From Microbispora hainanensis (GTDB lineage Bacteria; Actinomycetota; Actinomycetes; Streptosporangiales; Streptosporangiaceae): a DNA stretch of 64,000 nucleotides. The stretch spans positions 1-64,000 of the forward strand of contig NZ_VIRM01000014.1 in the NCBI RefSeq assembly GCF_006874475.1, given 5' to 3'. Position 1 is the first letter of the stretch. Every line of letters starts with the position of its first letter. Below the pieces are notes generated by a model. The model did no database searches, was not told where the DNA came from, and worked only from the letters and a program-made list of their open reading frames with translations. The position numbers and the translations under genes are program-made. This document shows, piece by piece, positions 15,899 to 32,391 of the stretch.

Positions 15899-16070
15899 CC
15901 CTACCCCCGGACCATGTACCGATTTTTCTCGACATACGGATCATGCCGGACAGGGCCAGCGGGTTGTCAATACGTGAAATCGCTACGAGTAAACACAATA
16001 TTGCTGACACATGAAAGCAACACCTTGTCATGATTCCATGTCCAATGGATGGGGAGTTTGCCCCTCCGCG

Positions 16071-16099
16071 CCGGAACCCCTATGGCATAGGGGTTCCGG
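16071..16099. promoter_or_regulatory. 29-bp inverted repeat (13-bp arms)
   Basis: Perfect arms CCGGAACCCCTAT (16071-16083) and its complement (16087-16099) around GGC. It lies 173 nt before the LAL start and 220 nt before the cyclodehydratase start. It may be an operator for a dimeric regulator or, read as RNA, a very stable hairpin in the LAL leader. Confidence 0.6.
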
Positions 16100-16150
16100 G
16101 CGGCCGAATCATCGCGGCAGGTCGGCGGGCACGGCCCTGAGAGGCGGTGC

Positions 16151-16162
16151 GCATACGTATTC
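16151..16162. promoter_or_regulatory. TACGTA palindrome (GCATACGTATTC), cluster operator candidate
   Basis: It matches 11 of 12 positions of the perfect palindrome GAATACGTATTC at 28625. It is located 157 nt upstream of the cyclodehydratase gene, with weaker relatives over the next 110 bp. Shared only with other RiPP-cluster promoters in this window. Confidence 0.55.
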
Positions 16163-16318
16163 CGCCGTGCCGCCGGCGATACGCATCACCGTACGCACAG
16201 GTCCGGATCGCGCTTTGTGCACGCCGATCGTACGTATGCGCCCGTGAAGCGACAAATACGTCTTTACTTTTTCCGCGAGTCAATGGAATTCTCCGCTCAT
16301 CGGCTAATCACGGAGTGA

Positions 16319-18589
16319 ATGGCGGGGGGCATGGAACGGCCACGGCTCAAGGCGCACTTCACGACCGAAGTCCTCGACGACGCGAAAGTCTTCCTTTTGG
16401 CGGAAGGCCAGCACTATCTCGTACGCGGCGCGGGCTCGGGCCGCGTCCTTCCCTATCTCGACGGCCGGCACACGGTGATGGACATCGTCCAGGCCCTCGC
16501 CGGCGAACTGTCCCCGGCCCAGGCGGTGCTCGCCGTACGGCGATACGAGGCCGCCGGACATCTGACCGAGGGCCGGCCGCCCCTGGCCGACCCGGTGCTC
16601 GCCTTCTGGGACGCGCAGGGCATCGACCCCGCGGCCGTCGTCACGGCCCTGGAGCGGACGTCCTTCCGGCTGTTCGCGGGCGCGGGCGTCGATCCCGGCC
16701 CGATCGAGGCGCTTTTGCACGAGCACGGGCTGCGCACCGCTCCGGACGGCGACGGCCCGGTCGTGGCGGTGGTCCACGACTACCTCGACCCGGGCCTGGC
16801 GGAGCTCAACGCCGAGTGCCTGGCGGCCGGGCGGCCCTGGGTGCTGGTCAGGCCCGCCGGCACCGTGGCCTGGCTGGGACCGCTGTTCCAGCCGGGGGAG
16901 ACGGGCTGCTGGGCCTGCATGTCCCAGCGGATCGAGGGCAACCGGCAGGTCGAGCGCTACCTCGCGGGCAAGCGGGGCGACGGGCTGCCGCCGTACCACC
17001 CGGTGCGCGAGGCCCTGCAGGGCGGCGCGGCGGCGGTGGGCGGGCTGCTCGCGGCCGAGCTCGCGCGGACGGCCGCCACGGGCCGGCCCTCGACCCTCCA
17101 GGGCAAGATGATCACGGTCGACCTGCGCACGCTCACCAGCGCCGAGCACCAGATGATCCGGCTGCCGCAGTGCCCGTCGTGCGGCGACCCCTCGCTGATC
17201 CGCGACCGCGAGCCGAAGGTGGCGCTGGCCGCGCGGACCGCCCGGCACGCGACCGACGGCGGCTACCGGGTCGAGCAGCCCTCGGCGACGTACGCCCGGC
17301 TGGAGCGGCACATCAGCCCCTACCTGGGCGCGGTCACCGGGCTGCGCCCGTGGGCCGGCGAGGACAACGGCGTGACCTACAGCTTCACCGCCGGTCACAA
17401 CTTCGCCATGCTGGGCGACAACATGGACCTGCTGCGCCGCAACCTGCGCGGGCAGAGCGGCGGCAAGGGCCGCACCGAGATCCAGGCCAAGGTCAGCGCC
17501 CTGTGCGAGGCGATCGAGCGCTACTCGGGCGTGTGGCGAGGCGAGGAGCCGGTGCTCAAGGCGGCCTACGCCGACCTCGACGAGGGTCTCGCGGTGCACC
17601 CGGCCGACCTGCTGCTGTTCTCCGACAACCAGTACGGCGACCGGGACGCCTGGAACAGCGACCCCTCCCACCGGCTGCACCTGGTGCCCGAGAGGTTCCG
17701 TACGGATCTGCCGCTCGACTGGTCGCGGGCCTGGTCGCTGACCGCAGACGAGGAGCGGCTGATCCCCGCCGGCTACGCCTGGTATGGCCATCCCGACCTC
17801 GAACGCCACTTCTACTGCGTCGGCGACTCCAACGGCAGCGCCTCCGGCAACACGCTGGAGGAGGCGATCCTCCAGGGGTTCTGCGAGGTCGTGGAGCGGG
17901 ACGCGGTCGCGCTGTGGTGGTACAACCGGGCCCGGCGGCCCGCCTTCGACCTCGACTCGCTCAACGACCCGTACGTCGGCACGCTGCGCGAGTTCTACGC
18001 CGACATGGGCCGCAGCCTGTGGCTGCTCGACCTGACCAGCGACCTCGGCGTCCCGGCCTTCGCCGGCGTCTCCCACCGGCTCGGCCACCCGGTGCAGGAC
18101 ATCATCGTGGGGTTCGGCGCCCATCTCGATCCCCGGATCGCCGCGCTGCGGACGCTGACCGAGGTCAACCAGTTCCTCCCGTCCGTACGCCGCAGGGACG
18201 AGAACGGCGAGACGATCTATCACGACGACGACATCGCGACGCTCCGCTGGTGGAAGGAGACCACGCTCGACAGCGACCCCTGGCTGCTGCCCGACCCCGC
18301 GCAGCGGTCCCGCACGCTGGCGGACTATCGGGTGCCCGAGGGCGCCGACCTCGCGGCCGACGTCGAGACCTGCGTCGCCCGGGCCGCCGCCTGCGGTCTC
18401 GAGGTGATCGTCCTCGACCAGACGCGGCCGGATCTGGAGCTCAACGTCGCCCGGGTGCTGGTCCCCGGCATGCGGCACTTCTGGCGCCGGCTTGGCCCGG
18501 GCCGCCTGTACGACGTGCCGGTGGCCCTCGGCTGGCGGACGGAACCGGCTCTGGAGGAGGAGCTCAACCCCACCAGCGTCTTCTTCTGA
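16319..18589 (+). CDS. TOMM cyclodehydratase: fused E1-like leader-binding domain and YcaO
   Basis: 756 residues. It should bind the precursor leader and use ATP to turn Cys (or Ser/Thr) into azolines. Residues 1-330 form the E1/ocin-ThiF-like part with a four-Cys zinc site, C197 and C200 (ETGCWACMSQ) and C285 and C288 (PQCPSCGD). Residues about 380-750 are YcaO: GKGRTEIQAKVSALCEAIER at 383-402 and GNTLEEAILQGFCEVVERDA hold the ATP/Mg ligands. The C-terminus is NPTSVFF, without the PXPXP tail of many azoline-forming YcaOs. ATG 16319 follows CGGAG closely; ATG 16331 also has a good site. It heads a five-gene plus-strand operon. Confidence 0.94.
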   Translation: MAGGMERPRLKAHFTTEVLDDAKVFLLAEGQHYLVRGAGSGRVLPYLDGRHTVMDIVQALAGELSPAQAVLAVRRYEAAGHLTEGRPPLADPVLAFWDAQGIDPAAVVTALERTSFRLFAGAGVDPGPIEALLHEHGLRTAPDGDGPVVAVVHDYLDPGLAELNAECLAAGRPWVLVRPAGTVAWLGPLFQPGETGCWACMSQRIEGNRQVERYLAGKRGDGLPPYHPVREALQGGAAAVGGLLAAELARTAATGRPSTLQGKMITVDLRTLTSAEHQMIRLPQCPSCGDPSLIRDREPKVALAARTARHATDGGYRVEQPSATYARLERHISPYLGAVTGLRPWAGEDNGVTYSFTAGHNFAMLGDNMDLLRRNLRGQSGGKGRTEIQAKVSALCEAIERYSGVWRGEEPVLKAAYADLDEGLAVHPADLLLFSDNQYGDRDAWNSDPSHRLHLVPERFRTDLPLDWSRAWSLTADEERLIPAGYAWYGHPDLERHFYCVGDSNGSASGNTLEEAILQGFCEVVERDAVALWWYNRARRPAFDLDSLNDPYVGTLREFYADMGRSLWLLDLTSDLGVPAFAGVSHRLGHPVQDIIVGFGAHLDPRIAALRTLTEVNQFLPSVRRRDENGETIYHDDDIATLRWWKETTLDSDPWLLPDPAQRSRTLADYRVPEGADLAADVETCVARAAACGLEVIVLDQTRPDLELNVARVLVPGMRHFWRRLGPGRLYDVPVALGWRTEPALEEELNPTSVFF

Positions 18590-18605
18590 CCCGATAGGGG
18601 GAGCA

Positions 18606-20090
18606 ATGCACACCGTTCAGGTGCGGCTGCGCCGCGACGCCGGCCTGTCCGAACCGGAGGAGACGCCGGGGGCGGTCATCCTGGCCACGCCGTTCGGCCC
18701 TGCCACGCTGCGGGGCCTGCCGCCCGGCGCGGTCGCCGCGCTGCGCGCGCTGGCCCGCGGCGGCACGAGCGAGGACGAGCTGGCCAGGACCGTCACCGAG
18801 CACGACGGCGAGGGCGGGCTGCTGCGCTGGCACCTGCTGCTGCGCAAGCTGTCGGCCGGGGCCCTGCTGGAGCGGGCCCTGGTGGTGCCGTCCGGCGGAG
18901 AGATGGCGACAGCCGGGGCCGAGCCGGTGGCCGTGCTGCGCCCCTTCGGAGGCGGCCCGCTGCGCCCGGCCGCGCCGCTCGCCGCGGACGCCCGCGTGCG
19001 CCTGTCGAGGTTCGCCATAGCGGTGCCGGAGGACGGCAGGCTCGTGGTGCGCGTGCCCCGCAGCCCCCTCGGGGTCGAGCTCGCCCCGGCCGCCGCGCCG
19101 CTGCTCGGCCTGCTCGCGGACTGGACGACCCCGGCCGGCCTCGCCTGCCCGGGGCTGCCGGCCGGGACGACGGCGGCGGTGCTCGGCCTGTTCGCCGACG
19201 CCGGGCTGCTGGTGCGGCCGACACCCGAGGGAGAGGACCCCGAGCGCGGAGCCGTCCCGCTCGCCCAGTGGTCGCCGGCCGACCTGTGGCTGCACACCCG
19301 CACCCGGGAACCCCGTACGACCGGGCGCTACGGCGGCACCTATCCGCTGCGGGGCGTGCAGGATCCGCTGCCGGTGGCGCCGCCCGCCTTCGACGGCCCC
19401 CGGATCGCCCTGGAGCCGCCGGACCTGGACGCGATCGCGAAGACCGAGGCGAGCCTGACCGATGTGCTGGAGGCCCGCCGCTCGATCCGCGAGCACGACG
19501 CCGCCGCCCCGATCACCCTCGACCGCCTGGGCGAGCTGCTCTACCGCACGATGCGCCAGCGGCGCACCTTCACAGGGGAGGACGGCCAGGAGCTGGCCGA
19601 CCGGCCCTACCCGTCCGGCGGCGCGGTCCACGAGCTGGAGGTCTATCCCCTCGTCGTCTCCTGCGAGGGCCTGGAGCCCGGCCTGTGGCACTACGCCGCC
19701 CACGCGCACGCGCTTGAACGGGTGGCCGATCCCGGCCCGGCGACCCGCACGCTGCTCGACCGGGCCAGGTCGGCGGCCATGATGACCGGGGACCCGCAGG
19801 TCCTGCTGATCGTGACGGCCCGCTTCGGGCGGGTGATGTGGAAGTACGAGACCATCGCCTACTCGCTGATCCTCAAGCACGTGGGCGTGCTCTACCAGAC
19901 CTTCTACCTGGTGGCCACGGCCATGGGCCTGGCGGTCTGCGGGCTCGGCGGCGGTGACGCGGCGGAGTTCGCCGCGGCCAGCGGGCTCGACCCGCACGCG
20001 GAGGGCAGCGTGGGCGAGCTGCTGCTCGGCAGCAGGCGGGGCGGCGCGGCGGGGACGCCGCCGGGATGGTCCCCGGAGGTGCCGTCATGA
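18606..20090 (+). CDS. SagB-type FMN-dependent azoline dehydrogenase
   Basis: 494 residues. The C-terminal half is the nitroreductase-like SagB/ThcOx domain: LTDVLEARRSIREHD, RPYPSGGAVHELEVYPLV and LILKHVGVLYQTFYLVATAMG followed by GLGGGDAAEFA, which bind FMN and oxidise azolines to azoles. The first 250 residues are an extra winged-helix/E1-like extension seen in other actinobacterial SagB proteins. AGGGGGAG lies just before ATG 18606, 16 nt past the cyclodehydratase stop. Its presence implies aromatic thiazoles rather than thiazolines. Its stop overlaps the HlyD-like gene. Confidence 0.93.
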   Translation: MHTVQVRLRRDAGLSEPEETPGAVILATPFGPATLRGLPPGAVAALRALARGGTSEDELARTVTEHDGEGGLLRWHLLLRKLSAGALLERALVVPSGGEMATAGAEPVAVLRPFGGGPLRPAAPLAADARVRLSRFAIAVPEDGRLVVRVPRSPLGVELAPAAAPLLGLLADWTTPAGLACPGLPAGTTAAVLGLFADAGLLVRPTPEGEDPERGAVPLAQWSPADLWLHTRTREPRTTGRYGGTYPLRGVQDPLPVAPPAFDGPRIALEPPDLDAIAKTEASLTDVLEARRSIREHDAAAPITLDRLGELLYRTMRQRRTFTGEDGQELADRPYPSGGAVHELEVYPLVVSCEGLEPGLWHYAAHAHALERVADPGPATRTLLDRARSAAMMTGDPQVLLIVTARFGRVMWKYETIAYSLILKHVGVLYQTFYLVATAMGLAVCGLGGGDAAEFAAASGLDPHAEGSVGELLLGSRRGGAAGTPPGWSPEVPS

Positions 20091-20899
20091 AGTTCCGGTT
20101 GAAGGCCCTGCAGCGGATGCGGGAGCCCGACGAACTCGACTCCCCGACCCTGCTCGCCTCCCCGCGCGGCTGGATCGCCACGTTCGTCGTGCTCATCGTG
20201 GTCGTCGCCGCGGGGGTGTGGTCGTTCGTCGGCAGACTGCCGGTCACCGTGACCGCCAAAGGGCTGCTGACCCATCCGGCGGGCACCGCCCAGCTGCAGA
20301 GCCCGTACACCGGGACCGTGCGGACGATGATGGTGAGCCCCGGCCTGCGGGTGGTGCGCGGACAGGCGGTGGCGGAGGTGCTGCGGGCCGACGGCACCGT
20401 GCGCACCGTGAGCAGCCCCTTCACCGGCGAGGTCGTCACCACCTCGGCGAGCGAGGGCGCGATGGTCCGCGAGGGCGACGGGCTGCTCGCGATGGAGCGG
20501 ACCGACGCTCCCCGCGACCGCCTGGTCGCGATGCTGTTCGTGCCGGGCGACCACGCGCTCGGCATCGCCCCCGGCCGTACGGTCGACCTCGCGGTCTCCA
20601 ACGCCCCGCCCGGCGTGTTCGGGCTGCTGCGCGGCAGGGTGACCTCGATCAGCCCCTATCCGCTGATGGCGGAGGGCGTCGCCGCCCTGGTCGGCGGCGA
20701 CCTCTCGGCCCGCGGCTACCTCACCGCGGAGCCGCCCCGCCTGGTGGTCGTCGACCTCCTGCCCGACCCCCGCACCATGTCCGGATACTCCTGGACGACC
20801 GAGACCGGTCCCCCGATGGAGCTGCAGTCGCAGGTCACGGTGACGGGCACCGTCACGCTCAGCAGCCAGACGCCTTTCAACCTGCTCCTCGGACGCTGA
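20087..20899 (+). CDS. NHLM bacteriocin system secretion protein (HlyD-like)
   Basis: 270 residues, the membrane-fusion-like component paired with NHLM ABC exporters. A single membrane helix lies near residues 26-46 (GWIATFVVLIVVVAAGVWSF). It is followed by a lipoyl/barrel-sandwich part, LQSPYTGTVRTMMVSPGLRV and the mirrored VSSPFTGEVVTTSASEGAMV, which is the HlyD hallmark. The C-terminal half is beta-rich. ATG 20087 overlaps the SagB-gene stop by 4 nt and has GGAGGTG 6 nt upstream; the earlier ATG at 20066 lacks a site. In Gram-positives such proteins probably guide the peptide through the wall. Confidence 0.92.
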   Translation: MKFRLKALQRMREPDELDSPTLLASPRGWIATFVVLIVVVAAGVWSFVGRLPVTVTAKGLLTHPAGTAQLQSPYTGTVRTMMVSPGLRVVRGQAVAEVLRADGTVRTVSSPFTGEVVTTSASEGAMVREGDGLLAMERTDAPRDRLVAMLFVPGDHALGIAPGRTVDLAVSNAPPGVFGLLRGRVTSISPYPLMAEGVAALVGGDLSARGYLTAEPPRLVVVDLLPDPRTMSGYSWTTETGPPMELQSQVTVTGTVTLSSQTPFNLLLGR

Positions 20900-20910
20900 G
20901 AAGGAGACGG

Positions 20911-23157
20911 ATGAGCCAGGTCACGGCCTCTCGCGCCGACGCCCCACCGTCCGGCGCCCCGCCCCGGCGCGAACGCCGCAAGCGGGGGCGCGTGAGCACG
21001 CCGACCGTCATCCAGATGGAGGCCGTCGAGTGCGGGGCCGCCGCCCTCGCCATGGTCCTCGGCCACTACGGCAGGTTCGTGCCCCTTGAGGAGCTGCGGG
21101 CCGCCTGCGCGGTGTCCCGGGACGGCGCGAAGGCGTCCAGCGTGATCGCCGCCGCCCGCAAGTACGGCCTGGAGGCCAAGGGCTTCCAGATGGAGCTGGA
21201 GGACCTGCGCGACGTCGTCAAACCGGCGATCATCTTCTGGGCGTTCCAGCACTTCATGGTCGTCGAGGGCATCCGCAGCCGCTTCGGCAGGCCGGTGGTG
21301 GCGGTCAACGACCCCGCGAGCGGCCCCCGCCTGGTCGACTGGGACGAGTTCGACTCGGGCTTCACCGGCATCGTGCTGACCTTCGAGCCCGGGCCCGGAT
21401 TCCGGCCCGGCGGCCGGCCCACCCGGGTGGCCGAGGCGCTGCTGTCGCGCCGCATGCCCTCCGGCCGGGCGCTGCCGCTGGTGCTGCTGGCCAGCCTGCT
21501 GCTGGTCGTGCCCGGGATCATCGCGCCGGCGTTCAGCCGGGTGTTCATCGACCACATCCTCACCGGCCGCGACCCCGGCTTCATCCTGCCGCTGCTGGTG
21601 GCGATGTCGGTGACCGCCCTGGCGATGTTCGTGCTGACCTCGGTGCAGCGGCACTACCTGCTGCGGATGGAAATACGGATGGGGCTGGTCAGCTCCGCCC
21701 GTTTCTTCCGACATCTGCTGCGCCTGCCGGTGGAGTTCTTCCTGCAACGCAGGCCCGCCGAGGTCGCCAGGCGGGTGTCGGCCAACGACATGGTCGCCGA
21801 GATCCTGTCCAGGGACCTCGCGGTCACCGTCGTCAACCTCGTGCTGGTGCTCTTCTACGCGGTCGTCCTGATCCGCTACGACGTGCTGCTCGGCCTCATC
21901 GGCGTGGGCATGGCGCTGCTCAACATCCTCGTGCTGCGGCAGGTGTCCAGGGCCAGGACCGACGCCGTGGCCGCGCTGCGGGCCGACCTCGGCAACCTCA
22001 CGTCGGCCACCTTCAACACCCTGCAGCTCGTGGAGACCGTCAAGGCCACCGGCGCCGAGCCCAGCGCGTTCCAGCGGTGGGCGGGCTTCCTGGCCAAGGC
22101 CGTGACCGCCCGGCAGCGGCTGGGCGTGCCCAGCGCGGTCATCACGGTCGTGCCCCCGCTGCTCGCCGGGGTCAACAGCGGGCTCATCCTGCTCGTCGGC
22201 GGCCTGCGGGTCGTGGACGGCGCGGTCAGCGTCGGCCTGCTGGTGGCCTTCCAGAGCCTGCTCGGCGCGCTGTCGCGGCCGGTGACCCAGCTCACCAACC
22301 TCGGCGGGCGGCTGCAGGACATCTCCGCCGACATCACCCGGCTGTACGACGTGGAACGTCACCCCCGCTCGCCCGTCTTCGACCGCCCGGACCGGCCGTC
22401 CGGAAGCCGGCTCGACGGGTCGATCACCTTCGAGGAGGTGACGTTCGGCTACAACCCGCTGGCCAAGCCGGTCGTCAAGAACGTGTCGTTCTCGGTGGTG
22501 CCGGGCCGGCGGGTGGCGATCGTCGGGGGCTCGGGGAGTGGGAAGTCGACCATCGGCCGCCTCGTGGCGGGGCTCTACCGGCCGGCGTCGGGCCGGGTGC
22601 TGCTCGACGGGCGCGACCGCGAGGAGATCTCCAGGACCGAGCTCGCGGCCTCGGTCGCGTACGTGGACCAGGACATCTCGCTGTTCGAGGGCACGGTGCG
22701 CGACAACCTCACGCTGTGGAGCGACGACATCTCCGACGAGGTCGTCACCGCCGCGCTGCACGACGCGGCCATCTTCGACGTCATCTCCGCCCGCCCCGGC
22801 GGGCTCAACAGCCGGGTGCGCGAGGGCGGGCGCAACTTCAGCGGCGGGCAGCGCCAGCGGCTGGAGCTGGCCAGGGCGCTGGCCGGGCAGCCGACGCTGC
22901 TCGTGCTCGACGAGGCGACCAGCGCGCTCGACCCGGAGACCGAGCGGGTGATCGCCGACAACCTGCGCCGCCGGGGATGCGCCTGCCTGATCATCGCCCA
23001 CCGGCTGTCGACCGTACGCGACGCCGACGAGATCCTCGTGCTGCACCAGGGCGAGGTGGTGGAACGCGGCACGCACGACGACCTCATGCGCCTCGGCGGC
23101 CACTACGCACGCTTGATCGAGAACGCCCGGCCGGGCGGTGAAGGGATGGACCGATGA
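20911..23157 (+). CDS. NHLM ABC exporter 1 with C39 peptidase domain
   Basis: 748 residues, a peptidase-containing ABC transporter. The C39 cysteine protease (about 28-165) has catalytic C41 in MEAVECGAAALAMVL, H114 in WAFQHFMVVEG and D134 in VAVNDPASG. The membrane domain (about 185-470) starts ALPLVLLASLLLVVPGIIAP. The ATPase has Walker A IVGGSGSGKSTIGR, signature FSGGQRQRLELARAL, Walker B LLVLDEATSALD and the H-loop IIAHRLST. It should cut the precursor leader and export the product. AAGGAG precedes ATG 20911. All catalytic residues are present. Confidence 0.96.
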   Translation: MSQVTASRADAPPSGAPPRRERRKRGRVSTPTVIQMEAVECGAAALAMVLGHYGRFVPLEELRAACAVSRDGAKASSVIAAARKYGLEAKGFQMELEDLRDVVKPAIIFWAFQHFMVVEGIRSRFGRPVVAVNDPASGPRLVDWDEFDSGFTGIVLTFEPGPGFRPGGRPTRVAEALLSRRMPSGRALPLVLLASLLLVVPGIIAPAFSRVFIDHILTGRDPGFILPLLVAMSVTALAMFVLTSVQRHYLLRMEIRMGLVSSARFFRHLLRLPVEFFLQRRPAEVARRVSANDMVAEILSRDLAVTVVNLVLVLFYAVVLIRYDVLLGLIGVGMALLNILVLRQVSRARTDAVAALRADLGNLTSATFNTLQLVETVKATGAEPSAFQRWAGFLAKAVTARQRLGVPSAVITVVPPLLAGVNSGLILLVGGLRVVDGAVSVGLLVAFQSLLGALSRPVTQLTNLGGRLQDISADITRLYDVERHPRSPVFDRPDRPSGSRLDGSITFEEVTFGYNPLAKPVVKNVSFSVVPGRRVAIVGGSGSGKSTIGRLVAGLYRPASGRVLLDGRDREEISRTELAASVAYVDQDISLFEGTVRDNLTLWSDDISDEVVTAALHDAAIFDVISARPGGLNSRVREGGRNFSGGQRQRLELARALAGQPTLLVLDEATSALDPETERVIADNLRRRGCACLIIAHRLSTVRDADEILVLHQGEVVERGTHDDLMRLGGHYARLIENARPGGEGMDR

Positions 23158-26129
23158 GCGTCCCGACCGCGACGCCGCCCTCGACGTTCTCGCCGTTCTT
23201 CACCGACGCGGCCACGCCCATCGACTATTCGGCCGACCGGCTGCTCGTGCTGGCCGACCTGCGCGAGGTGCTGCTGGTCGAGCGCGGCGCGGTCGACCTG
23301 TTCGCCGTACGCCTGGAGAACGGCAGGCCGGTCGGCCGGTGGAACTACCTGTGCCGGGTGCGGCAGGGCGCGCTGGTGCTCGGCTCGCCGCGCGGCCCCA
23401 GGCACAGCATCGTCGGGCGGCCGGTGCTCGGCGCCCGCGTGTCGAGCCTGCCGCTGGCCCGGCTGGAGGGCCTGTCGGCCCGTCGCGTCGACGGCCCGTC
23501 CGCGTCGGGCAAGGCGGTCCGCGCCCTGCCCACCCGTGAGTACGGCATGGCCGTGCGCGAGTTCGTGCAGGGCCTGGAGGCCGGCGTGGTGGCGCTCGCC
23601 GCGTCGATGCGCGACACGCTGCCCCCGCGCGACTTCGTCCCGCTGTCGCCGGACGAGCCCACCGTCGTCCGCGAGGGCGAGGCCGTCCGGTCGGTCGACG
23701 GACTGCGGTGGATCACCGTCGAGGACGGCGTGGTCGAGATGCCGGAGGGCGTCGCCGGTCAGCTCAGCGCGGGCGCCGAGGTGTGCGTCACCGAGCGGGA
23801 CTGGCTGGTGGCCCGCGGCCCGGCCCGGCTGCGCGCCCGCTCGACCCTCGACCTGCTGGGCGCGGGCGAGCTGTGGCACCGGTGGGTCGAATACACCACC
23901 CGCTTCCTCTACATGATCGACCGGCGGATCGAACGCCGGAACTCGACCGAGCTGAGGGCGCTGACGAGCCGGGCCGAGCGGGGCGGCGACGTGCTGCGCA
24001 CCACCGCCCGCGGGTTCGACACGCTGGTGCGCGACACCGAGGCGCGGGTGCGCCTCACCGACGTGGCCGGGGACCCTCCCGCGCTGGCCGCCGCGCGCCT
24101 GGTGGCCTCGCACGCCGGATTCTCGGTGGTCGCGCCCCCGCCGGGAGCCGTGAACGGCGGCCGGATCGACCCGCTGCAGGCCATCGCGCTCGCCTCGGGC
24201 GTACGCACCCGCCGGATCAGGCTCGACGACCGCTGGTGGCGGCGGGACATCGGGCCGATGGTGGGCTACCGCTCCTCCGACGGTGAGCCGGTGGCGCTGC
24301 TGCCCATCGGGTCGCACTACGTCATGGCCGCGCCGGGGGAGGAGCGCGTCACCCCGGTCACCGCGGCGGTCGCCGGCACGCTGACCCGGCACGCCGACGT
24401 GCTGTACGAGCCGCTGCCGCCGGCCGTCACCGGAGTGGGCGGGCTGCTGCGGTTCGGCCTGGCCAAGAACCGCAAGGACCTGTGGACCCTGCTCAGCCTC
24501 GGGACGCTGGTGGCCTGCATCGGCCTGCTGGTGCCCGCCATGACCGGCCTCGTGCTCGGCACGTACGTGGCCAGGGCCGAGCGCGAGATGATCGTGCAGG
24601 GCGCGCTGCTGGTGATCGCGGGCTCGCTCGTGGCGGCCGCGCTGTCCGTGGTGCAGAACTTCGCCGCGCTGCGCATCGAGGGCAGATCGTCGGCCCGCCT
24701 GCAGGCGGGCGCCTGGATGCGGCTGCTGTCGCTGCCCGCGACGTTCTTCACCAACTACTCCACGGCCGAGCTGGGCACCACGGTCCTCGGCGTCAGCGTG
24801 GTGCAGGAGACGCTGTCCGGCGTGATGACGACGGCGGCACTCGGCCTGTTCGCCGGCCTGGCCAACCTCGTGCTCGTCTTCTTCTACGACGTACGGCTCG
24901 CGCTGATCGCGACGGCGCTCGTGCTGGCCGGGGTGCTGGTGTGCGCGGTCGCGGGCTACTTCGAGGTGCGGCTGCAACGCCGGCTCTACGCCCAAGAGCA
25001 GCGGCTGTCGTCGCGGGTCTTCCAGCTTCTGACGGCCGTCCCGAAGCTGCGGGTGGCGGCGGCCGAGGAGCGGGGCTTCGGGGTCTGGGCGGCGGAGTTC
25101 CTCAAGGCACGCAGCATCGGAGTGTCCGCCCGCCGGGTGCAGAACCTCGTCACGACCTTCAACGCCGGCTTCCCGCTGGTCGCGTCGGTCATCGTCTTCG
25201 CCGTGGTGGCCGGGCCGATGCTCGGAGACGTGTCCGTCTCCGCGTTCCTGGCGTTCTTCGCCGCGTTCAACCTGCTGCTGGCCTCGGTGCTGCAGTTCAC
25301 CGGCGCGGCGATCACCGCGATGAGCGTGGTGCCCATGCTGGAGCGGCTGCGGCCGATCCTGGCGGCCGATCCGGAGGAGCACGCCGGCAAGGCCGACCCG
25401 GGCGAGCTGTCGGGCCGGATCGAGCTGTCGCGGGTGTCGTTCCGCTATGGCGAGGACGGGCCGCTCGTGCTGGACGGGGTGGACCTGTCGGTCGAGCCCG
25501 GCGAGTTCGTCGCGATCGTCGGCCCGACCGGCAGCGGCAAGTCGACGATCCTGCGGCTGCTGCTCGGCTTCGAGTCGCCGAGCTCGGGAACCGTGCTGTA
25601 CGACGGCCAGGACCTGGGCGAGCTCGACATCGGCGCGGTGCGCCGCCAGTGCGGGGTGGTCCTGCAGAACAGCTCGCTGCTCGCCGGCGACATCAAGGCC
25701 AACATCATCGGCAGCACCGACCACACGATCGACGACGCCTGGGACGCCGCGGGCATGGCGGGCATCGCCGACGACATCGCCAACATGCCGATGGGCATGC
25801 ACACCGTGCTGTCGGAGGGCACCAACACGCTGTCGGGCGGGCAGCGGCAGCGCATCATGATCGCCCGCGCCCTCGTCTCGCATCCCCGCATCGTGCTGTT
25901 CGACGAGGCGACCAGCGCATTGGACAACCCCACCCAGAAGATCGTCACGGAGAGCACCCGCCAGCTCAACGCCACCCGGATCGTGATCGCCCACCGGCTC
26001 TCGACGATCACGGACGCCGACAAGATCGTGGTGCTCGATCGCGGGCGCATCGTCCAGCAGGGCCGATATCAGGAGCTGCTCGAGGACGCCGACGGCCTGT
26101 TCGCCCGCCTCGCCCGCCGCCAGATCTGA
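23154..26129 (+). CDS. NHLM ABC exporter 2 (permease/ATPase with large N-terminal domain)
   Basis: 991 residues. The first 400 or so residues are a cytoplasmic region special to this family, with a cyclic-nucleotide-binding-like start and an internal domain. The membrane domain begins near LGTLVACIGLLVPAMTGLV. The ATPase has Walker A IVGPTGSGKSTILR, signature LSGGQRQRIMIARAL, Walker B IVLFDEATSALD and the H-loop IVIAHRLST. There is no C39 peptidase here, so it is the partner half-transporter of the C39-containing gene, whose stop it overlaps by 4 nt. A strong hairpin follows its stop. Confidence 0.95.
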   Translation: MSVPTATPPSTFSPFFTDAATPIDYSADRLLVLADLREVLLVERGAVDLFAVRLENGRPVGRWNYLCRVRQGALVLGSPRGPRHSIVGRPVLGARVSSLPLARLEGLSARRVDGPSASGKAVRALPTREYGMAVREFVQGLEAGVVALAASMRDTLPPRDFVPLSPDEPTVVREGEAVRSVDGLRWITVEDGVVEMPEGVAGQLSAGAEVCVTERDWLVARGPARLRARSTLDLLGAGELWHRWVEYTTRFLYMIDRRIERRNSTELRALTSRAERGGDVLRTTARGFDTLVRDTEARVRLTDVAGDPPALAAARLVASHAGFSVVAPPPGAVNGGRIDPLQAIALASGVRTRRIRLDDRWWRRDIGPMVGYRSSDGEPVALLPIGSHYVMAAPGEERVTPVTAAVAGTLTRHADVLYEPLPPAVTGVGGLLRFGLAKNRKDLWTLLSLGTLVACIGLLVPAMTGLVLGTYVARAEREMIVQGALLVIAGSLVAAALSVVQNFAALRIEGRSSARLQAGAWMRLLSLPATFFTNYSTAELGTTVLGVSVVQETLSGVMTTAALGLFAGLANLVLVFFYDVRLALIATALVLAGVLVCAVAGYFEVRLQRRLYAQEQRLSSRVFQLLTAVPKLRVAAAEERGFGVWAAEFLKARSIGVSARRVQNLVTTFNAGFPLVASVIVFAVVAGPMLGDVSVSAFLAFFAAFNLLLASVLQFTGAAITAMSVVPMLERLRPILAADPEEHAGKADPGELSGRIELSRVSFRYGEDGPLVLDGVDLSVEPGEFVAIVGPTGSGKSTILRLLLGFESPSSGTVLYDGQDLGELDIGAVRRQCGVVLQNSSLLAGDIKANIIGSTDHTIDDAWDAAGMAGIADDIANMPMGMHTVLSEGTNTLSGGQRQRIMIARALVSHPRIVLFDEATSALDNPTQKIVTESTRQLNATRIVIAHRLSTITDADKIVVLDRGRIVQQGRYQELLEDADGLFARLARRQI

Positions 26130-26162
26130 GCCCACGGGCGGTTTCGCGGGCATGGATGCGCA

Positions 26163-26198
26163 AACCGCCGGCGGACCGGGAACGATCCGCCGGCGGTT
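26163..26198. terminator. Bidirectional hairpin terminator
   Basis: Perfect 13-bp arms AACCGCCGGCGGA (26163-26175) and its complement (26186-26198) with a 10-nt loop. They lie between the end of the NHLM operon and the end of the convergent small-protein/methyltransferase/P450 operon. Confidence 0.85.
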
Positions 26199-26207
26199 CT
26201 CGTGTGG

Positions 26208-26393
26208 TCAGTAGCGGGGCCTGCGGCTCAGCACGATTCCGGCGATGAGGAACACCACGCCGAGCCCGCCGTACACGAAGGCGTGGGTGGTGGCGGGCGG
26301 CTTCACGCTGGCGTTGGCGACGGCCAGCCCGAGGCCCACGATGCCGCTGATGTAACAGAAGATCGCGACGAAGATCTTCCAGAAGGGGCTCAT
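26208..26393 (-). CDS. Small two-helix membrane protein, 61 aa
   Basis: It starts MSPFWKIFVAIFCYISGIVG and contains two hydrophobic stretches, residues about 5-27 and 40-57, joined by a polar loop with KPPATTHAFVYGG, and ends in a basic tail SRRPRY. No family recognised. Its ATG overlaps the methyltransferase stop by 4 nt, so it is the third gene of the P450/methyltransferase operon inside the RiPP cluster. An immunity or accessory-export role is plausible for such a small integral protein, but only by position. Confidence 0.8.
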   Translation of the reverse strand: MSPFWKIFVAIFCYISGIVGLGLAVANASVKPPATTHAFVYGGLGVVFLIAGIVLSRRPRY

Positions 26394-27226
26394 GACGTAC
26401 TCCGTTCGGATGCGGCGGGACCGCCCGGTGCGGTCCCGGCGACGACGAGGCCGAGCAGCATGACCCAGGCGTCGGGGTCGGCGCGGAAACGCCGCCACCG
26501 GTCGGCCGCCAGGGCGAGCTCGGGCAGGGTCAGGGCCCCGGAGGCGACCAGCGGCGCCAGCCGCTCCGGGCCCAGGTGAGGGGCGAACGCCTCGGTGGGG
26601 CGGTCGTCGTTGGTGGTGGCGAACGGCCGCAGCACCACGTCGCCGAAGCCCGCACGGCGAAGGAGCCGGGTGAGCTTGCGCCCGATCAGCCGGTCGCCGC
26701 CGGCCTGCCGCTGCGCGCCGGTCATGCGGTTGTGCACGCCGGCCATCTCGGGGTACATCGGGTCGGCCAGGCCCCACAGCATCGCGTCCACCTCGATCAC
26801 GACCAGCCGCCCGCCCGGCCGCAGCACCCGCAGCGCCTCCGCCACCACGGCGGCCGGGTCGGCCACGTGCTGCAGTACGTATCGGAGCAGGACCGTGCCC
26901 ACGGACGCGTCCGCCAGCGGCAGCCGTACGGCGTCGCAGCCGAGCAGGGGGGCCCGGGCGTCCGCCGCGTGCGCCAGCAGCGCGGTGTCGATGTCGGCGG
27001 CCACGATGGGCAGGTCCGGCAGGGCGGCCCGCAGCCGCCGGGTGACCGCGCCCGAGCCCGCCCCGAGCTCCAGCAGGGGCGCCGGGACGCCCACGTCGAG
27101 CAGGATCCGCAGCTCCTCGTCGAAGGAGAGCTCGGCCTGGGCCTCCAGGCGCGCCAGCTCGCCGTGCAGGCCCCCGGCTGTCGTCGCGGCCGGGTCGTAC
27201 GACCCGGCGCCCGTCACGGCGGTCAC
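26390..27226 (-). CDS. SAM-dependent methyltransferase, RiPP cluster
   Basis: 278 residues from GTG 27226, which overlaps the P450 stop (GTGA). Motif I is APLLELGAGSGAVTRRLRA, then VAADIDTALLAHA, DAVRLPLADASVG, YVLQHVADP and LRPGGRLVVIEVD of the Methyltransf_11/25 group. The C-terminal part (HNRMTGAQRQAGGDRLIGRK; WRRFRADPDAWVM) is typical of natural-product methyltransferases. It may methylate the N-terminus, a side chain or the C-terminus of the peptide. It is coupled on both sides by 4-nt overlaps, so it is co-made with the P450 and the small membrane protein. Confidence 0.9.
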   Translation of the reverse strand: MTAVTGAGSYDPAATTAGGLHGELARLEAQAELSFDEELRILLDVGVPAPLLELGAGSGAVTRRLRAALPDLPIVAADIDTALLAHAADARAPLLGCDAVRLPLADASVGTVLLRYVLQHVADPAAVVAEALRVLRPGGRLVVIEVDAMLWGLADPMYPEMAGVHNRMTGAQRQAGGDRLIGRKLTRLLRRAGFGDVVLRPFATTNDDRPTEAFAPHLGPERLAPLVASGALTLPELALAADRWRRFRADPDAWVMLLGLVVAGTAPGGPAASERSTS

Positions 27227-28605
27227 GGCCGCCTCCGCGCGTCCCTGAGTTCCGTCTCCCGGGGCTCCGTCTCCCGGGGCTCCGTCTCCCGGGGGCGGGG
27301 GACCATGAGCATGCCGTGCCGCGGGCGCAGCGTGACCAGGGCCTCGGGCTCGACCGGGAAGCCGGGGACGAGCTCGGGGCGCACGGCGCGCAGCAGCACG
27401 GCCAGCACGAGCGTGGCCTCGACCAGCGCGAAGTGGCGGCCGACGCACACCCGCGGGCCGCCGCCGAAGGGGAGGTACTGGTGCCCGGCGTGGGTGTGCT
27501 CGGCCGCGAACCGGTCCGGTGCGTACGTCTCCGGGTCGGGCCAGTAGCGCGGATCCCGGTGGAGTACGTACGGGCTGACGCACACCAGCGTGCCCGGAGG
27601 TATGGCGTATCCGCCGACCACGTCGGCCTCGACGGAGCGCCGGGAGATGAGCCACACGGGCGGATACAGCCGCATGGCCTCCTTGATCGCCCGCTGGCAG
27701 GCGGTCAGCCGGGGCAGGTCGGCGGCGGTGGGGGTCCGGTCGCCGCCCAGCACCTCGTCCACCTCCGCGCGTACGGCCCGCGCCGCGTCGGGGTGACGGT
27801 CGAGGAGGTAGAGCGTCCAGGTCAGGGCCTTGGCGGTGGTCTCGTGCCCGGCCATGACGATCGTCAGCACCTGGTCGCGCAGGTCGGTCGCGGTCATCGC
27901 GTGCCCGGAGGCCAGCATCGCGCCGAGCAGGTCGTCGTTCTCCTGGCCGGTGGCCCGGCGGGCGGCCACGATCGTCCGGGTGACGGCGTCGAGGAACGCC
28001 TTCGCCCGGCGGAACCCCTCCCGCCCGCCGCCCTCGGAGGCGGGGTCGAAGTGCCCGATGAAGCGGTTGACCTCGTCCACCGCCCGCCCGAAGCCGTCGC
28101 CGACGCCCGCGATGTCCGCGCCGAGCATGGCGCGCGCGATGACGGTGAGCGTGAGCGCGGTCAGGTCGTGGTCGACGCGTACGGCCTCGCCGTTCTCGCC
28201 GGCCCGCCGCCACCGGTCGGCCAGGTGGGCCGCGGCGTCGGTCATGATCTGGTCGAACCGCTCGACCTCCGTCGGGCGGAAGGCCGGGGCGATCATCTTG
28301 CGCTGCCTGGCCCACTCCTCGCCGCCGCTGGTCAGCAGGCCGTTGCCGAGCAGGGGGCGCAGCATGTCGTCGTCGGGCGTGCGGTCCTTGGTGTAGTTGG
28401 CGCCGTTGTCCTTCAGCACGTGCCGGGCCAGGTCGGGCCGGTGCAGCATGTAGACGGGCGCGCCCTCGGCCTCGTGTCTCGTCACGTCGCCCCAGGCGGC
28501 CATCTCGGTGACGAAGCGCAGCGGGTCCTCCCGCATGCTGCGCAGACTTTGGGCGCCGTCCGGACCCGGCGGCAGGGATACGTAACCGCTGTGCGTATCG
28601 GCCAT
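27223..28605 (-). CDS. Cytochrome P450, RiPP cluster
   Basis: 460 residues. It has I-helix IVMAGHETTAKALTW with the usual acid/Thr pair, EXXR in IKEAMRLYPPVW, and heme loop FGGGPRVCVGRHFA with the Cys ligand. Its long N-terminus and the GQENDDLLGAML segment resemble the class II-like bacterial P450s of the CYP102/110 type rather than CYP105/107. The start is ATG 28605, preceded by GAGGG; an upstream GTG in frame lacks support. The C-terminus ends in a repeated PRETEPRETEPRETE tail coded by 15-bp tandem repeats. Two TACGTA palindromes lie just upstream, shared with the divergent precursor gene. Confidence 0.92.
   Translation of the reverse strand: MADTHSGYVSLPPGPDGAQSLRSMREDPLRFVTEMAAWGDVTRHEAEGAPVYMLHRPDLARHVLKDNGANYTKDRTPDDDMLRPLLGNGLLTSGGEEWARQRKMIAPAFRPTEVERFDQIMTDAAAHLADRWRRAGENGEAVRVDHDLTALTLTVIARAMLGADIAGVGDGFGRAVDEVNRFIGHFDPASEGGGREGFRRAKAFLDAVTRTIVAARRATGQENDDLLGAMLASGHAMTATDLRDQVLTIVMAGHETTAKALTWTLYLLDRHPDAARAVRAEVDEVLGGDRTPTAADLPRLTACQRAIKEAMRLYPPVWLISRRSVEADVVGGYAIPPGTLVCVSPYVLHRDPRYWPDPETYAPDRFAAEHTHAGHQYLPFGGGPRVCVGRHFALVEATLVLAVLLRAVRPELVPGFPVEPEALVTLRPRHGMLMVPRPRETEPRETEPRETELRDARRRP
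27251..27294. repeat. Three 15-bp tandem repeats at the P450 3' end
   Basis: Units TCCGTCTCCCGGGGC start at 27251, 27266 and 27281 and encode the PRETE repeats of the P450 tail just before its stop. Confidence 0.75.
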
Positions 28606-28624
28606 GCCCACCCTCACTTTTTCT

Positions 28625-28677
28625 GAATACGTATTCGCTTATGAATTGCGCACGCGATCGACTGCGAATACGTACTC
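28625..28677. promoter_or_regulatory. Pair of TACGTA palindromes between P450 and precursor genes
   Basis: GAATACGTATTC (28625-28636) is a perfect 12-bp palindrome. GAATACGTACTC (28666-28677) differs at one position. Their starts are 41 bp apart, about four helical turns, so one regulator could bind both. A weaker copy (GGATACGTAACC) lies at 28576 in the start of the P450 gene. They sit in the 230-bp gap that must hold both divergent promoters. Confidence 0.65.
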
Positions 28678-28835
28678 GGTGATATTTCCTGATCGGAGCA
28701 TAGTCCGCGCCGTTCGAGGCCTCAATACTTATGCCGGCGGCGGGAAAATTAAGTCTGTGCCGTTCCCGCACCGCCGTGTAAGACTTCATTTCGAAAGCGG
28801 CGGACATCGCCGTAAAGAAAGCCGGGAGGCAGGCA

Positions 28836-29228
28836 ATGTCTTTGGACCCCAGACAGCGCGCCGAATTCGTGAACGCGTACACCCGCGTTCTCATCACCGC
28901 GTGGTCGAGTGAGGAATACTCGGCGCGGCTGGACTCCGACCCCCGCGCGGCTCTCGCCGAGTCCGGGCTGGAGCTGCCGGCTGGAGCCGAGGTCGTCCTC
29001 GTCCGCAACATTCCCGAAGGCCACCACGACAGCAACATCGAGGTGCAGGTCGCGCTCTGGGAGAGGGGCCTCGAAACGGGCCGCTTCGAGCTGCACATCC
29101 CCGAGACGCCTCAGGTCGACATGGCCGAGCTGAGCGAGGGCGACCTCGACTCCATCGCCGCCGGCGCCTCCGGGGCCGAGGCGATCGACATCAACTGCTG
29201 CTGCTGCCCCTGCTGCTGCTGCACCTGA
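28836..29228 (+). CDS. NHLP-leader RiPP precursor with Cys4-Pro-Cys4-Thr core
   Basis: 130 residues. Residues about 15-60 resemble nitrile hydratase alpha-subunit leaders: LITAWSSEEYSARLDSDPRA then LAESGLELPAGAEVVLVRNI. An inserted stretch of about 30 residues (HHDSNIEVQVALWERG onward) follows, then the acidic helix ELSEGDLDSIAAGASG where double-Gly-type leaders are cut. The C-terminus is EAIDINCCCCPCCCCT and the gene ends there. All eight core Cys codons are TGC. GGGAGG precedes ATG 28836. With the cyclodehydratase and SagB enzyme, the predicted product is a polythiazole peptide with up to eight rings. The cut site is probably after AG or GA of IAAGASG. The ring count and cut site are inferred. 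Confidence 0.93.
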   Translation: MSLDPRQRAEFVNAYTRVLITAWSSEEYSARLDSDPRAALAESGLELPAGAEVVLVRNIPEGHHDSNIEVQVALWERGLETGRFELHIPETPQVDMAELSEGDLDSIAAGASGAEAIDINCCCCPCCCCT

Positions 29229-29278
29229 CCGTCATCCGACCATCACCTGACCATCACCACCACTCGGAGGGCTAGGCC

Positions 29279-30223
29279 ATGTCCATGGTCGCCGAGCAGG
29301 CGAACCCCGTCCACGTGCGCTCCCTGCGCAAGCGGTACGGCCCGGTGAACGCGGTCGAGGAGGTGGACCTCGACGTGCGGAGCGGCGAGGTCTTCGCGCT
29401 CCTCGGGCCGAACGGCGCCGGCAAGACCACCACGGTGGAGATCCTGGTGGGGGTTCGCCGGCGGACATCCGGCGACGTGCGTGTCCTCGGCCGGGATCCG
29501 GCCGAGGACGCGCCCGAGTGGCGCGCCAGGATCGGCGTCGTCCCCCAGACGACGGGGGCGTACACCGACCTGACCGTGCGCGAGGTGGTCGAGCACTTCG
29601 CGGCGTTCTACCCCGCGCCGCTGCCGGTGGCCGAGGTGATCGACATGGTCGGCCTCGGCAAACAGGCGCGCAAGCAGACGCAGGCGCTCTCCGGCGGGCA
29701 GGCGCGGCGGCTCGACGTCGCGGTCGGCGTCGTCGGGGACCCCGATCTCATCTTCCTGGACGAGCCGACGACGGGACTCGACCCCGTCGCCCGCAGGGAG
29801 GCGTGGGATCTCGTCCGCTATTTCGCCGGCCGGGGCAAGACCACCGTGCTCACCACCCATTACCTGGACGAGGTCGAGGCGCTCGCGCAGCGGGCGGCCG
29901 TCATCGTCGGGGGACGGGTCGTCGAGTCGGGCCCGGTCGCCGAGCTGGGCGGCAGGCGCGAGACACCCGCCGCCGTGAGCTTCACCAGGACGGACGGGCT
30001 CGGCGCGGGCCTGCCCGCGCTGCCGGACGACGCCGTGGTGGAGGAGGCGGAGGGCCTGGTGGTCGTACGCACCCACCACCCCACCGAGGCCATGGCCGCG
30101 CTGCTGCCCTGGGCGGCCGCCTCCGGCGTACGCGAGCTGCCCGACCTGCGCATCCACCGGCCGTCGCTGGAGGAGATCTATCTGGACCTCATCCGGAGCA
30201 ACCAGGAAGGCGGTGTCGTGTGA
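29279..30223 (+). CDS. ABC-2 exporter ATPase (DrrA-like)
   Basis: 314 residues. Walker A LLGPNGAGKTTTVEIL, Q-loop VPQTTGAYTDLTV, signature LSGGQARRLDVAVG, Walker B LIFLDEPTTGLDP and switch LTTHYLDEVEALAQ. It has the long C-terminal part of drug-resistance ATPases such as DrrA, ending LHRPSLEEIYLDLI in type. CGGAGGG precedes the ATG, 50 nt after the precursor stop, so it is probably transcribed with the precursor. It may give self-protection or a second export route. Its stop overlaps the permease ATG by 1 nt. Confidence 0.95.
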   Translation: MSMVAEQANPVHVRSLRKRYGPVNAVEEVDLDVRSGEVFALLGPNGAGKTTTVEILVGVRRRTSGDVRVLGRDPAEDAPEWRARIGVVPQTTGAYTDLTVREVVEHFAAFYPAPLPVAEVIDMVGLGKQARKQTQALSGGQARRLDVAVGVVGDPDLIFLDEPTTGLDPVARREAWDLVRYFAGRGKTTVLTTHYLDEVEALAQRAAVIVGGRVVESGPVAELGGRRETPAAVSFTRTDGLGAGLPALPDDAVVEEAEGLVVVRTHHPTEAMAALLPWAAASGVRELPDLRIHRPSLEEIYLDLIRSNQEGGVV

Positions 30224-31077
30224 TGAACGCTCCCGACGCGGTCCTCGCGCAGGAGAGCGGGGTGGTGCTCGATCCCGCCCGCTCGATCCTGTGGCGGGCG
30301 GCCGTCTCGCGTTCGTCGGTCGAGCTCAAGTCGTTCTTCCGCAACCGGCAGTCGCTGGTCTTCACGCTGCTGCTGCCCATCGTGCTGCTGGTCGTGCTCG
30401 GCTCCATCTTCTCGGGGACCGTGCCCGGCACCCACACCGACTTCAAGCAGATGTTCATCGCGGGCATCATCGCCTGCGGCGTGATGAGCGTCAGCTTCAA
30501 CGGGCTGGCCATCAGCGTCGCCATCGAGCGCGACACCGGGATGATCCGCCGGCTGGCCTCCAGCCCCATGCCGAAGTCGGCCTACTTCATCGGCAAGGTG
30601 GTCAGGGTGGCCGTGACCGGCACCCTGGAGACGGTGCTGCTGCTCGCGGTGGCCGTGCTGGCGTTCGGGCTGCCGCTGCCCTCGACCGCCGCCCGGTGGG
30701 AGACGCTCGTGTGGGTGCTGCTGCTCGGCGGGGTGTCCTGCACGCTGCTGGCCGTGGCGTTCAGCTCGGTCATCCCCAACGCCCGGTCGGCCTCGGCCAT
30801 CGTCACGCTGCCGTTCCTGGTGCTGCAGTTCATCTCGGGGGTGTTCTTCCCCTACAGCCAGCTGCCGGCGTGGATGCAGACGGTCGCGGCCCTGTTCCCG
30901 CTCAAGTGGATGACCCAGGGGCTGCGCTCGGTGTTCCTGCCGAACGACTTCGCCCACGTCGAGCCCGCGGGTGTCTGGGAGCTCGACCGCGTGGCGCTCG
31001 TGCTGGCCGCGTGGTGCCTCGCCGGGCTGGCGCTGAGCTTTTTGACCTTCCGCTGGCGTGGGCCCAACGTCCGCTGA
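30223..31077 (+). CDS. ABC-2 exporter permease (DrrB-like)
   Basis: 284 residues with six predicted membrane segments, for example LVFTLLLPIVLLVVLGSIF near the N-terminus, and the ABC-2 signature region LPFLVLQFISGVFFPYSQLP followed by WMQTVAALFPLKWMTQGLR. It partners the ATPase just upstream to form a DrrAB-type drug or peptide exporter. The start ATG 30223 overlaps the preceding stop (TGATG). It converges with the P450 gene at 31081 with only 3 bp between stops, so transcripts probably read into each other. Confidence 0.94.
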   Translation: MNAPDAVLAQESGVVLDPARSILWRAAVSRSSVELKSFFRNRQSLVFTLLLPIVLLVVLGSIFSGTVPGTHTDFKQMFIAGIIACGVMSVSFNGLAISVAIERDTGMIRRLASSPMPKSAYFIGKVVRVAVTGTLETVLLLAVAVLAFGLPLPSTAARWETLVWVLLLGGVSCTLLAVAFSSVIPNARSASAIVTLPFLVLQFISGVFFPYSQLPAWMQTVAALFPLKWMTQGLRSVFLPNDFAHVEPAGVWELDRVALVLAAWCLAGLALSFLTFRWRGPNVR

Positions 31078-31080
31078 CGC

Positions 31081-32244: not shown

Positions 32245-32269
32245 CGGCGATCCCCTGGGGCTGAGGTCA

Positions 32270-32308: not shown

Positions 32309-32391
32309 GGCACGGCCACGCTACTACACAGCCGCCGCCGCCGGGATGAATGCGAACAACTGCGGACCGGACGGGCGCTTGGGAGGCAGCG

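Follow-up and report, generated by a model that had tools for sequence, protein, structure and literature searches.

The first 64,000 nucleotides of contig NZ_VIRM01000014.1 from the soil actinobacterium Microbispora hainanensis (the window) carry a small gene whose product ends in two runs of four cysteines hinged by a single proline. Its neighbors resemble the enzymes and exporters of ribosomally synthesized and post-translationally modified peptides (RiPPs). An earlier note on this DNA had described a 130-codon gene ending in NCCCCPCCCCT, and translation of 28836-29228 on the forward strand bears this out, giving 130 residues with the C-terminus IAAGASGAEAIDINCCCCPCCCCT. The gene and its core are laid out as follows.

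28836..29228, + strand: precursor peptide gene, 130 residues; leader 1-110 ending in IAAG, variable spacer 111-116, invariant IDINCCCCPCCCCT at 117-130
29166..29225, + strand: core region ASGAEAIDINCCCCPCCCCT after the putative C39 peptidase site IAAG, a cleavage site placed from alignments

The core is encoded by two in-frame (TGC)4 runs flanking CCC at the 3' end of the open reading frame (ORF), which is immediately preceded by GGGAGG, a sequence resembling a Shine-Dalgarno (SD) site. Four successive Cys codons, (TGY)4, occur three times in the window against 0.03 expected from shuffles, and two of the three matches are the core runs themselves. The 27-base pattern for CCCCPCCCC has a single match in the 8.7-Mb genome and a reversed control pattern has none. 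A frame or repeat artefact was considered and rejected, because relatives use synonymous Cys and Pro codons yet keep the protein pattern: over 29 rows, in which L087 and L092 are one genome, Cys is written TGC 225 times out of 230 and TGT 5 times out of 230, and the core Pro codon is CCC, CCG or CCT. The frame is therefore real at the protein level. Nor is the gene a product of chance, since it is present in 8 of 15 Microbispora genomes, the source genome included, and in Nonomuraea, Sphaerisporangium, Planobispora and Streptomyces. The source genome holds only one precursor of this family at E 0.01.

To describe the core across relatives, we tabulated 21 cores (15 distinct), taking only those in which Cys runs surround Pro. 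A single row stands for all eight Microbispora genomes, G025 contributes two, and G808 and Streptomyces sp. H27-H5, which are the same genome (L092 lies inside L087), are counted once. At the positions flanking Pro we counted 139 Cys, 5 Ser and 1 Thr, with no other residue; changes are thus confined to residues that cyclodehydratases can use. The last core residue is Thr in 19 cores, Ser in one and Ala in one. One relative (L041 in G639, CCCCSGLCTCT) was excluded for want of a Pro, and G163, G429, G686 and the second leader of G386 fall outside the table, being without a Cys run.

Broader samples were searched for the precursor. At E 0.001, 30 of 297 genomes in the family sample had a match (14 of them below 1e-30), as did 17 of 394 in the class sample (6 below 1e-50); the two samples overlap, and many matches are nitrile hydratase (NHase) alpha subunits or other nitrile hydratase-like leader peptides (NHLPs) without a poly-Cys core. 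The Streptomyces sample gave 5 matches in 295 at E 1e-6, three with the poly-Cys core, and the phylum sample gave 4 in 396, including G1101, related at phylum level only, with the core SYCCCCCPCCSCT. A contig scan of genomes found 17 loci in Microbispora, Nonomuraea, Sphaerisporangium, Planobispora, Streptomyces and two metagenome-assembled genomes (MAGs). Plasmid carriage was rejected: among 72,556 plasmid records there was one match, to a leader relative at 40% that ends in KINCQIL without a Cys run.

The same searches brought up other NHLP-like precursors. In G639 (L041/L060), one with a different Cys-rich core, CCCCSGLCTCTG, lies near a 36% identical cyclodehydratase. In G386 (L044/L059) and G163 (L016/L065), precursors with hydrophobic, Cys-free ends (VDVNIVVIAIVI and VNVNVYAIFAA) sit beside a second, short YcaO-like match; the Cys-free precursor of G386 adjoins a poly-Cys precursor, and one exporter set may serve two core types there. 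Another NHLP-like family, distinct from these, ends in Gly/Thr/Ala-rich sequence (GTAGTLGTIGG) and has up to three matches per genome (L017-L021, L045, L047 and others).

The earlier note had assigned the precursor a leader of the nitrile hydratase type. A family profile of the precursor matches both the NHase alpha subunit and the solved NHLP leader structure 8tb1, and the predicted fold is that of an NHLP leader; together these speak for an NHLP-type leader, followed by a tail predicted to be disordered. Against TIGR03793 the leader scores 38 bits (E 1.1e-9), under the curated cut-off of 50.9.

Variation among the eight Microbispora precursors is unevenly spread. Residues differ at 4 of 110 leader positions, 5 of 6 spacer positions and 0 of the last 14; silent changes are likewise missing from the last 14, and 34 leader codons show silent change only. 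These counts come from related sequences and are hence not independent. Outside Microbispora, the segment from the AAG-like site to the Cys block varies in both length and sequence. The invariant end and the variable spacer suggest trimming in two steps, and we infer that the C39 peptidase cleaves after IAAG and that the spacer is lost later. The core named in the earlier note, NCCCCPCCCCT, is present in the sequence; the mature peptide may or may not be trimmed to exactly those residues, the invariant Microbispora stretch being IDINCCCCPCCCCT.

Upstream of the precursor lie five genes for putative ring formation and export, all on the same strand. The scores given are bits, followed by the curated cut-off.

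16319..18589, + strand: fused leader-binding/YcaO cyclodehydratase (TIGR03882 140.9 against 36.9; TIGR03604 251.9 against 219.25)
18606..20090, + strand: SagB-type flavin mononucleotide (FMN) dehydrogenase (TIGR03605 161.7 against 78.4; conserved WKY motif), its start chosen by an SD-like sequence
20087..20899, + strand: HlyD-type secretion protein of the nitrile hydratase leader microcin (NHLM) kind (TIGR03794 143.6, under the cut-off of 156.2)
20911..23157, + strand: C39 peptidase-ABC exporter (TIGR03796 975.6 against 853.3; QMEAVECG motif)
23154..26129, + strand: second NHLM ABC exporter (TIGR03797 840.1 against 709.4)

This set has the marks of linear azol(in)e-containing peptide (LAP) and thiazole/oxazole-modified microcin (TOMM) pathways, namely a fused leader-binding and YcaO protein and a SagB-type dehydrogenase with its Lys-Tyr motif. 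That motif has a recognized role in SagB enzymes, and WKY is kept in 17 of 17 rows (the window and 16 aligned relatives). The cyclodehydratase aligns with LynD and TruD over nearly its full length and also matches MusD. Both ABC proteins exceed their NHLM cut-offs, and the QME-ECG motif of the C39 domain is kept in 16 of 17 rows, the CG926 row being partial. The source genome has no second gene over the TIGR03604 cut-off; a weaker YcaO-family match, under that cut-off, lies at G000:C185:71665-72567.

Comparison with Microbispora genomes that lack the precursor (7 of 15) defined the limits of the locus. The site was compared in the four where the left flank was found (G002, G004, G006 and G012). 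In three of them the window's flanks end at about 13,011-13,025 and resume at about 37,250-37,262, across a gap of 1.15 kb (G002), 1.15 kb (G006) or 1.33 kb (G012), so that the genomes either carry some 24.2 kb in one piece or lack it altogether. In G004 the place is taken by 3.9 kb of other DNA. The interval proposed in the earlier note, 16319-31077, is accordingly too short, and both the absence of the block and the conservation of its genes put the cluster at about 13.0 to 37.2 kb. The block and its remaining genes are listed here.

13026..37249, no strand: block missing as a unit from Microbispora G002, G006 and G012 at the same site
13037..15898, - strand: AAA/TPR/LuxR helix-turn-helix regulator at the left edge of the block
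26390..27226, - strand: S-adenosylmethionine (SAM) methyltransferase (Methyltransf_11), the domain found inside the longer ORF scanned
27223..28617, - strand: first cytochrome P450, with canonical AGHETT
29279..30223, + strand: DrrA-type ABC ATPase
30223..31077, + strand: DrrB-type ABC permease
31081..32244, - strand: second cytochrome P450, which retains the heme Cys; its I-helix VVGGWRPL has Pro at the position of the first P450's Thr
32350..33576, + strand: flavin adenine dinucleotide (FAD) flavoprotein of the Amino_oxidase family (PF01593)
33573..34490, + strand: Rieske non-heme iron oxygenase, with CPH...CPFH and DxxHxxxxH present
34487..35275, + strand: alpha/beta hydrolase
35262..35975, + strand: VOC/glyoxalase-like protein, within the block and found in some relatives but not all
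35935..36105, - strand: 56-residue hydrophobic protein, probably in the membrane, a candidate immunity factor
36231..36959, - strand: 242-residue protein with no Pfam match, in the gained or lost block and, among the loci searched, matched only in Microbispora

With these, every neighbor named in the earlier note (YcaO fusion, SagB, HlyD, C39-ABC, ABC, methyltransferase and P450) is accounted for by family models. We then followed the gene set through relatives by tBLASTn of the window proteins on 27 genome entries. A strong precursor is present in 22 of the entries, which belong to five named genera or are MAGs. The precursor, second P450 and flavoprotein occur in 22 of these 22, and the Rieske protein and hydrolase in 21, the G005 stretch ending early. 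The methyltransferase is present in 21 (the exception is Planobispora) and the first P450 in 20 (the exceptions are Planobispora and the G025 MAG, whose contig ends there); neither was found in 36 kb of the Planobispora cluster. Gene order varies between genera (L052, L053, L067-L070), and the gene set is retained. The most widely kept tailoring genes are therefore the second P450, flavoprotein, Rieske protein and hydrolase (31081-35275), all outside 16319-31077. The P450 and methyltransferase that the earlier note put forward as decorating enzymes are both there, but they are less universal than this set. In the weak entries (G410, G386, G163, G429 and G639) none of the four was found in the stretch; G410 and G386 retain YcaO, SagB and the poly-Cys core.

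Several tailoring proteins have well-conserved motifs. In the second P450, the I-helix VVGGWRPLAEM has Pro in place of the AGHETT Thr in 18 of 18 rows, in a register set by eye, and the first P450 keeps AGHETT in 17 of 17. Both iron motifs of the Rieske protein are present in 17 of 17 rows. Further matches to the 56-residue protein came from five other Microbispora loci, two Nonomuraea, Sphaerisporangium and three Streptomyces (G636, G562 and G541); in the Streptomyces loci it follows the second exporter, at the cluster's far end. Planobispora has a weak match (E 1.4e-4) beside YcaO, and none was seen at E 0.01 in the G206, G027 and G025 stretches. We regard this protein as a candidate for immunity.

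Some cluster relatives carry a further gene, for a flavoprotein resembling flavin halogenases or QhpG (L067:5078-6532, with a WYWVIP stretch; L070:12926-14326; Sphaerisporangium; Nonomuraea spiralis), which was not found in the Microbispora loci. Its name is uncertain, as the CmlS, QhpG and LodB models all match it below their cut-offs. In Streptomyces and G206, a protein of 290-310 residues with no Pfam or NCBIfam match lies near this gene. The gene co-occurs with a Tyr before the Cys block in several Streptomyces clusters and G206. A link between the two was ruled out: Sphaerisporangium and N. spiralis show a 60% relative but no Tyr in the core, and CG926 (GNYCCC) and L053 (YYCCCCC) have the Tyr without a halogenase-like gene in the stretch examined. 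Outside the block, at 46305-46763 and 41204-41562, one ORF of the window contains a VPVPVP repeat and a different gene is internally repetitive at the DNA level.

The block also shares an operator-like palindrome among its promoter regions.

16152..16161, no strand: palindrome CATACGTATT, upstream of the YcaO operon, with a second copy AATACGTCTT at 16255
28626..28635, no strand: palindrome AATACGTATT, in the divergent P450/precursor promoter region, with a second copy AATACGTACT at 28667
36214..36223, no strand: palindrome TATACGTATT, upstream of the gene for the 56-residue protein

With at most one mismatch, AATACGTATT has five copies in the window against 0.10 expected from base shuffles only, and all five (16152, 16255, 28626, 28667 and 36214) fall in three promoter regions of the block. 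A 14-base form was found 7 times against 0.68 expected from dinucleotide shuffles; four of the seven carry three mismatches, and three of those four lie outside promoters. Copies precede the precursor in the scanned Microbispora, Nonomuraea, Sphaerisporangium and G206 loci, and YcaO in several. None was found in L052, L053, L054, L071, L055, L067, L056, L068 or L057, or, at up to two mismatches, between the second P450 and flavoprotein genes. The AAA/LuxR protein is a candidate regulator that may act at this palindrome.

How does this locus compare with known systems? Thiopeptides are marked by Ser-derived dehydroalanines and a pyridine synthase. Among the block proteins scanned there is no lantibiotic-type dehydratase or thiopeptide cyclase, and the invariant end of the core is free of Ser. 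No DUF4135/LanMbC or radical SAM epimerase family was found among them either, and the cluster thereby differs from that of the dehydrazoles as well.

The published comparisons that follow draw on parts of the papers cited. NHLP leaders, TOMM enzymes and NHLM export are established (PMC2887384, PMC4603692), as are azoles on NHLP precursors, in MprE, nostatin A and carnazolamide, the last with eight azoles (PMC12455567, PMC11583998, PMC10676384). A close parallel is MprE/MprC/MprD, in which a folded NHLP leader with an L(X)4L motif, a YcaO cyclodehydratase bearing a RiPP recognition element and an FMN oxidase give thiazoles (PMC12455567); 8tb1, matched by the present precursor, is the leader structure of that system. 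It has ten precursors, compared with the single one here with its contiguous Cys4-Pro-Cys4 core, and the P450/flavoprotein/Rieske/hydrolase set also sets the present cluster apart. Dehydrazoles and carnazolamide share an NHLP leader, a Cys-rich C-terminus, YcaO, a dehydrogenase and a methyltransferase (PMC10676384). In carnazolamide, however, a DUF4135 enzyme makes dehydroalanines at Ser before the azoles and a radical SAM epimerase is involved, whereas the core Cys here are contiguous. The cyanobactin heterocyclases LynD, TruD and MusD are homologs of the cyclodehydratase, but cyanobactins use a short unstructured PatE leader (PMC12455567) and PatA/PatG-like proteases in place of the NHLP leader and C39 exporter, and LynD ends differently. 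Nostatin A is an azole-containing proteusin, but a cyanobacterial one with a 30-residue core carrying a sactionine and dehydro residues (PMC11583998). The NHLP/TOMM clusters of Haft 2010 (TIGR03793, TIGR03794, TIGR03796 and TIGR03797) share the leader and exporter families and a fused cyclodehydratase, but those described there have multiple precursors, and the term CCCC does not occur in the main text (PMC2887384). An antiSMASH table for Planobispora lists a 'bacteriocin' cluster 24 shared with Microbispora, which may or may not be the present cluster (PMC4514598). The earlier note had not recognized the product as a described one; in the open-access literature (PubMed Central and a few preprints) CCCCPCCCC has no match, and we found no description there of a Cys4-Pro-Cys4 core or of the present tailoring set.

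The block probably makes and exports a heavily tailored oligothiazole RiPP, a hybrid of LAP and proteusin, with azole formation read from homology. The NHLP leader would fold as a small domain that presents the disordered C-terminal tail, and its LSEGDL stretch, an L(X)4L motif, would dock on the recognition domain of the LynD-like cyclodehydratase. This enzyme would convert the Cys run to thiazolines and SagB would oxidize these to thiazoles, up to four before Pro and four after. Two azole blocks with up to eight thiazoles appear the most likely outcome. The hinge Pro would retain its ring, with its carbonyl entering the next thiazole, and the terminal Thr could contribute a methyloxazole. 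C39-ABC would cleave after IAAG and, jointly with the second ABC protein and HlyD, export the product; loss of the variable spacer probably comes later. The second P450, amine-oxidase-like flavoprotein, Rieske protein and hydrolase would form the conserved tailoring set acting on the peptide, and the first P450 and methyltransferase a less universal one. DrrAB and the 56-residue protein are likely to provide self-protection.

Some observations weigh against this pathway. A C-terminal PxPxP is a hallmark of azoline-forming YcaO proteins, and the cyclodehydratase does not have it: its C-terminus is NPTSVFF, and each of the 16 aligned rows ends in VFF, whereas LynD at this point of the alignment has NPTPM, two residues before its own end. 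This ending weakens confidence in classical catalysis, though not in homology. Together with the crowding of eight adjacent rings, it forms the main ground for doubt. The leader and HlyD scores are under their curated cut-offs. YcaO itself was seen in 13 of the 22 strong-precursor genomes; the other nine stretches end before it, judging by the gene order of relatives. The strong preference for TGC would account in part for a core without silent change. In the poly-Cys relatives G410, G386 and G1101, the second P450, flavoprotein, Rieske protein and hydrolase were not found in the stretch, so the tailoring set is not common to the whole family.

In principle, the poly-Cys stretch could instead coordinate metal or become disulfide-bonded. 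The tail might then remain unmodified and be exported as a Cu/Zn-binding thiol peptide, with YcaO and SagB acting elsewhere, and eight successive thiols would indeed bind soft metals by general chemistry. Yet YcaO and SagB lie beside the precursor in 13 of 13 genomes whose stretch reaches YcaO, and the genome offers one precursor at E 0.01 and no other gene above the TIGR03604 threshold. Cys is exchanged only for Ser or Thr, at six inner positions, and no metal transporter or metal-responsive family is among the block proteins scanned. We consider this account highly improbable. Only slightly better placed, and still unlikely, is the idea that the tailoring genes at 31-36 kb belong to an unrelated neighboring pathway and the RiPP is a plain oligothiazole. 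It would fit both their absence from the stretches of distant poly-Cys relatives and the lack of a palindrome copy between the second P450 and flavoprotein genes. But these two genes accompany the precursor in all 22 genomes despite altered gene order, and the tailoring genes are missing together with it in three precursor-free Microbispora genomes.

A more serious possibility, if one we would not favor, is partial cyclization. Here MprC-like enzymes would act at several but not all positions, converting some Cys to azol(in)es and leaving the rest as thiols, thioethers or disulfides. Four contiguous rings would be demanding, and the altered cyclodehydratase C-terminus may mean altered activity. 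MprC makes two to six rings on its natural substrates (PMC12455567), and methylated Cys is reported in a carnazolamide intermediate (PMC10676384). On the other hand, carnazolamide attains its eight azoles (PMC10676384), and the presence of Cys, Ser or Thr at all inner block positions suggests that each is used.

Returning to the oligothiazole pathway, a further reading, less likely than not, is that of a new actinobacterial RiPP class of oligothiazole ribbons. Its members may carry a contiguous block of three to five thiazoles on each side of one Pro, in most cases with a ring derived from Thr at the C-terminus. Release may take place in two steps, after which an atypical P450, a flavoprotein resembling amine oxidases and a Rieske enzyme may remodel the peptide. 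In its boldest form, oxidation of the hinge Pro or N-terminal residue would yield one long conjugated rod that binds nucleic acid or membranes. If the pathway is correct, ribosomes and one cyclodehydratase would build stretches in which four to five thiazoles are joined directly, raising the question of how a YcaO enzyme with an unusual C-terminus handles eight adjacent Cys. The cluster is represented in no fewer than five named genera (Microbispora, Nonomuraea, Sphaerisporangium, Planobispora and Streptomyces), including several culture-collection strains, which makes the product and its tailoring enzymes directly testable. These bacteria would then encode rigid thiazole rods of defined length in their genes, along with new oxidases that act on them.

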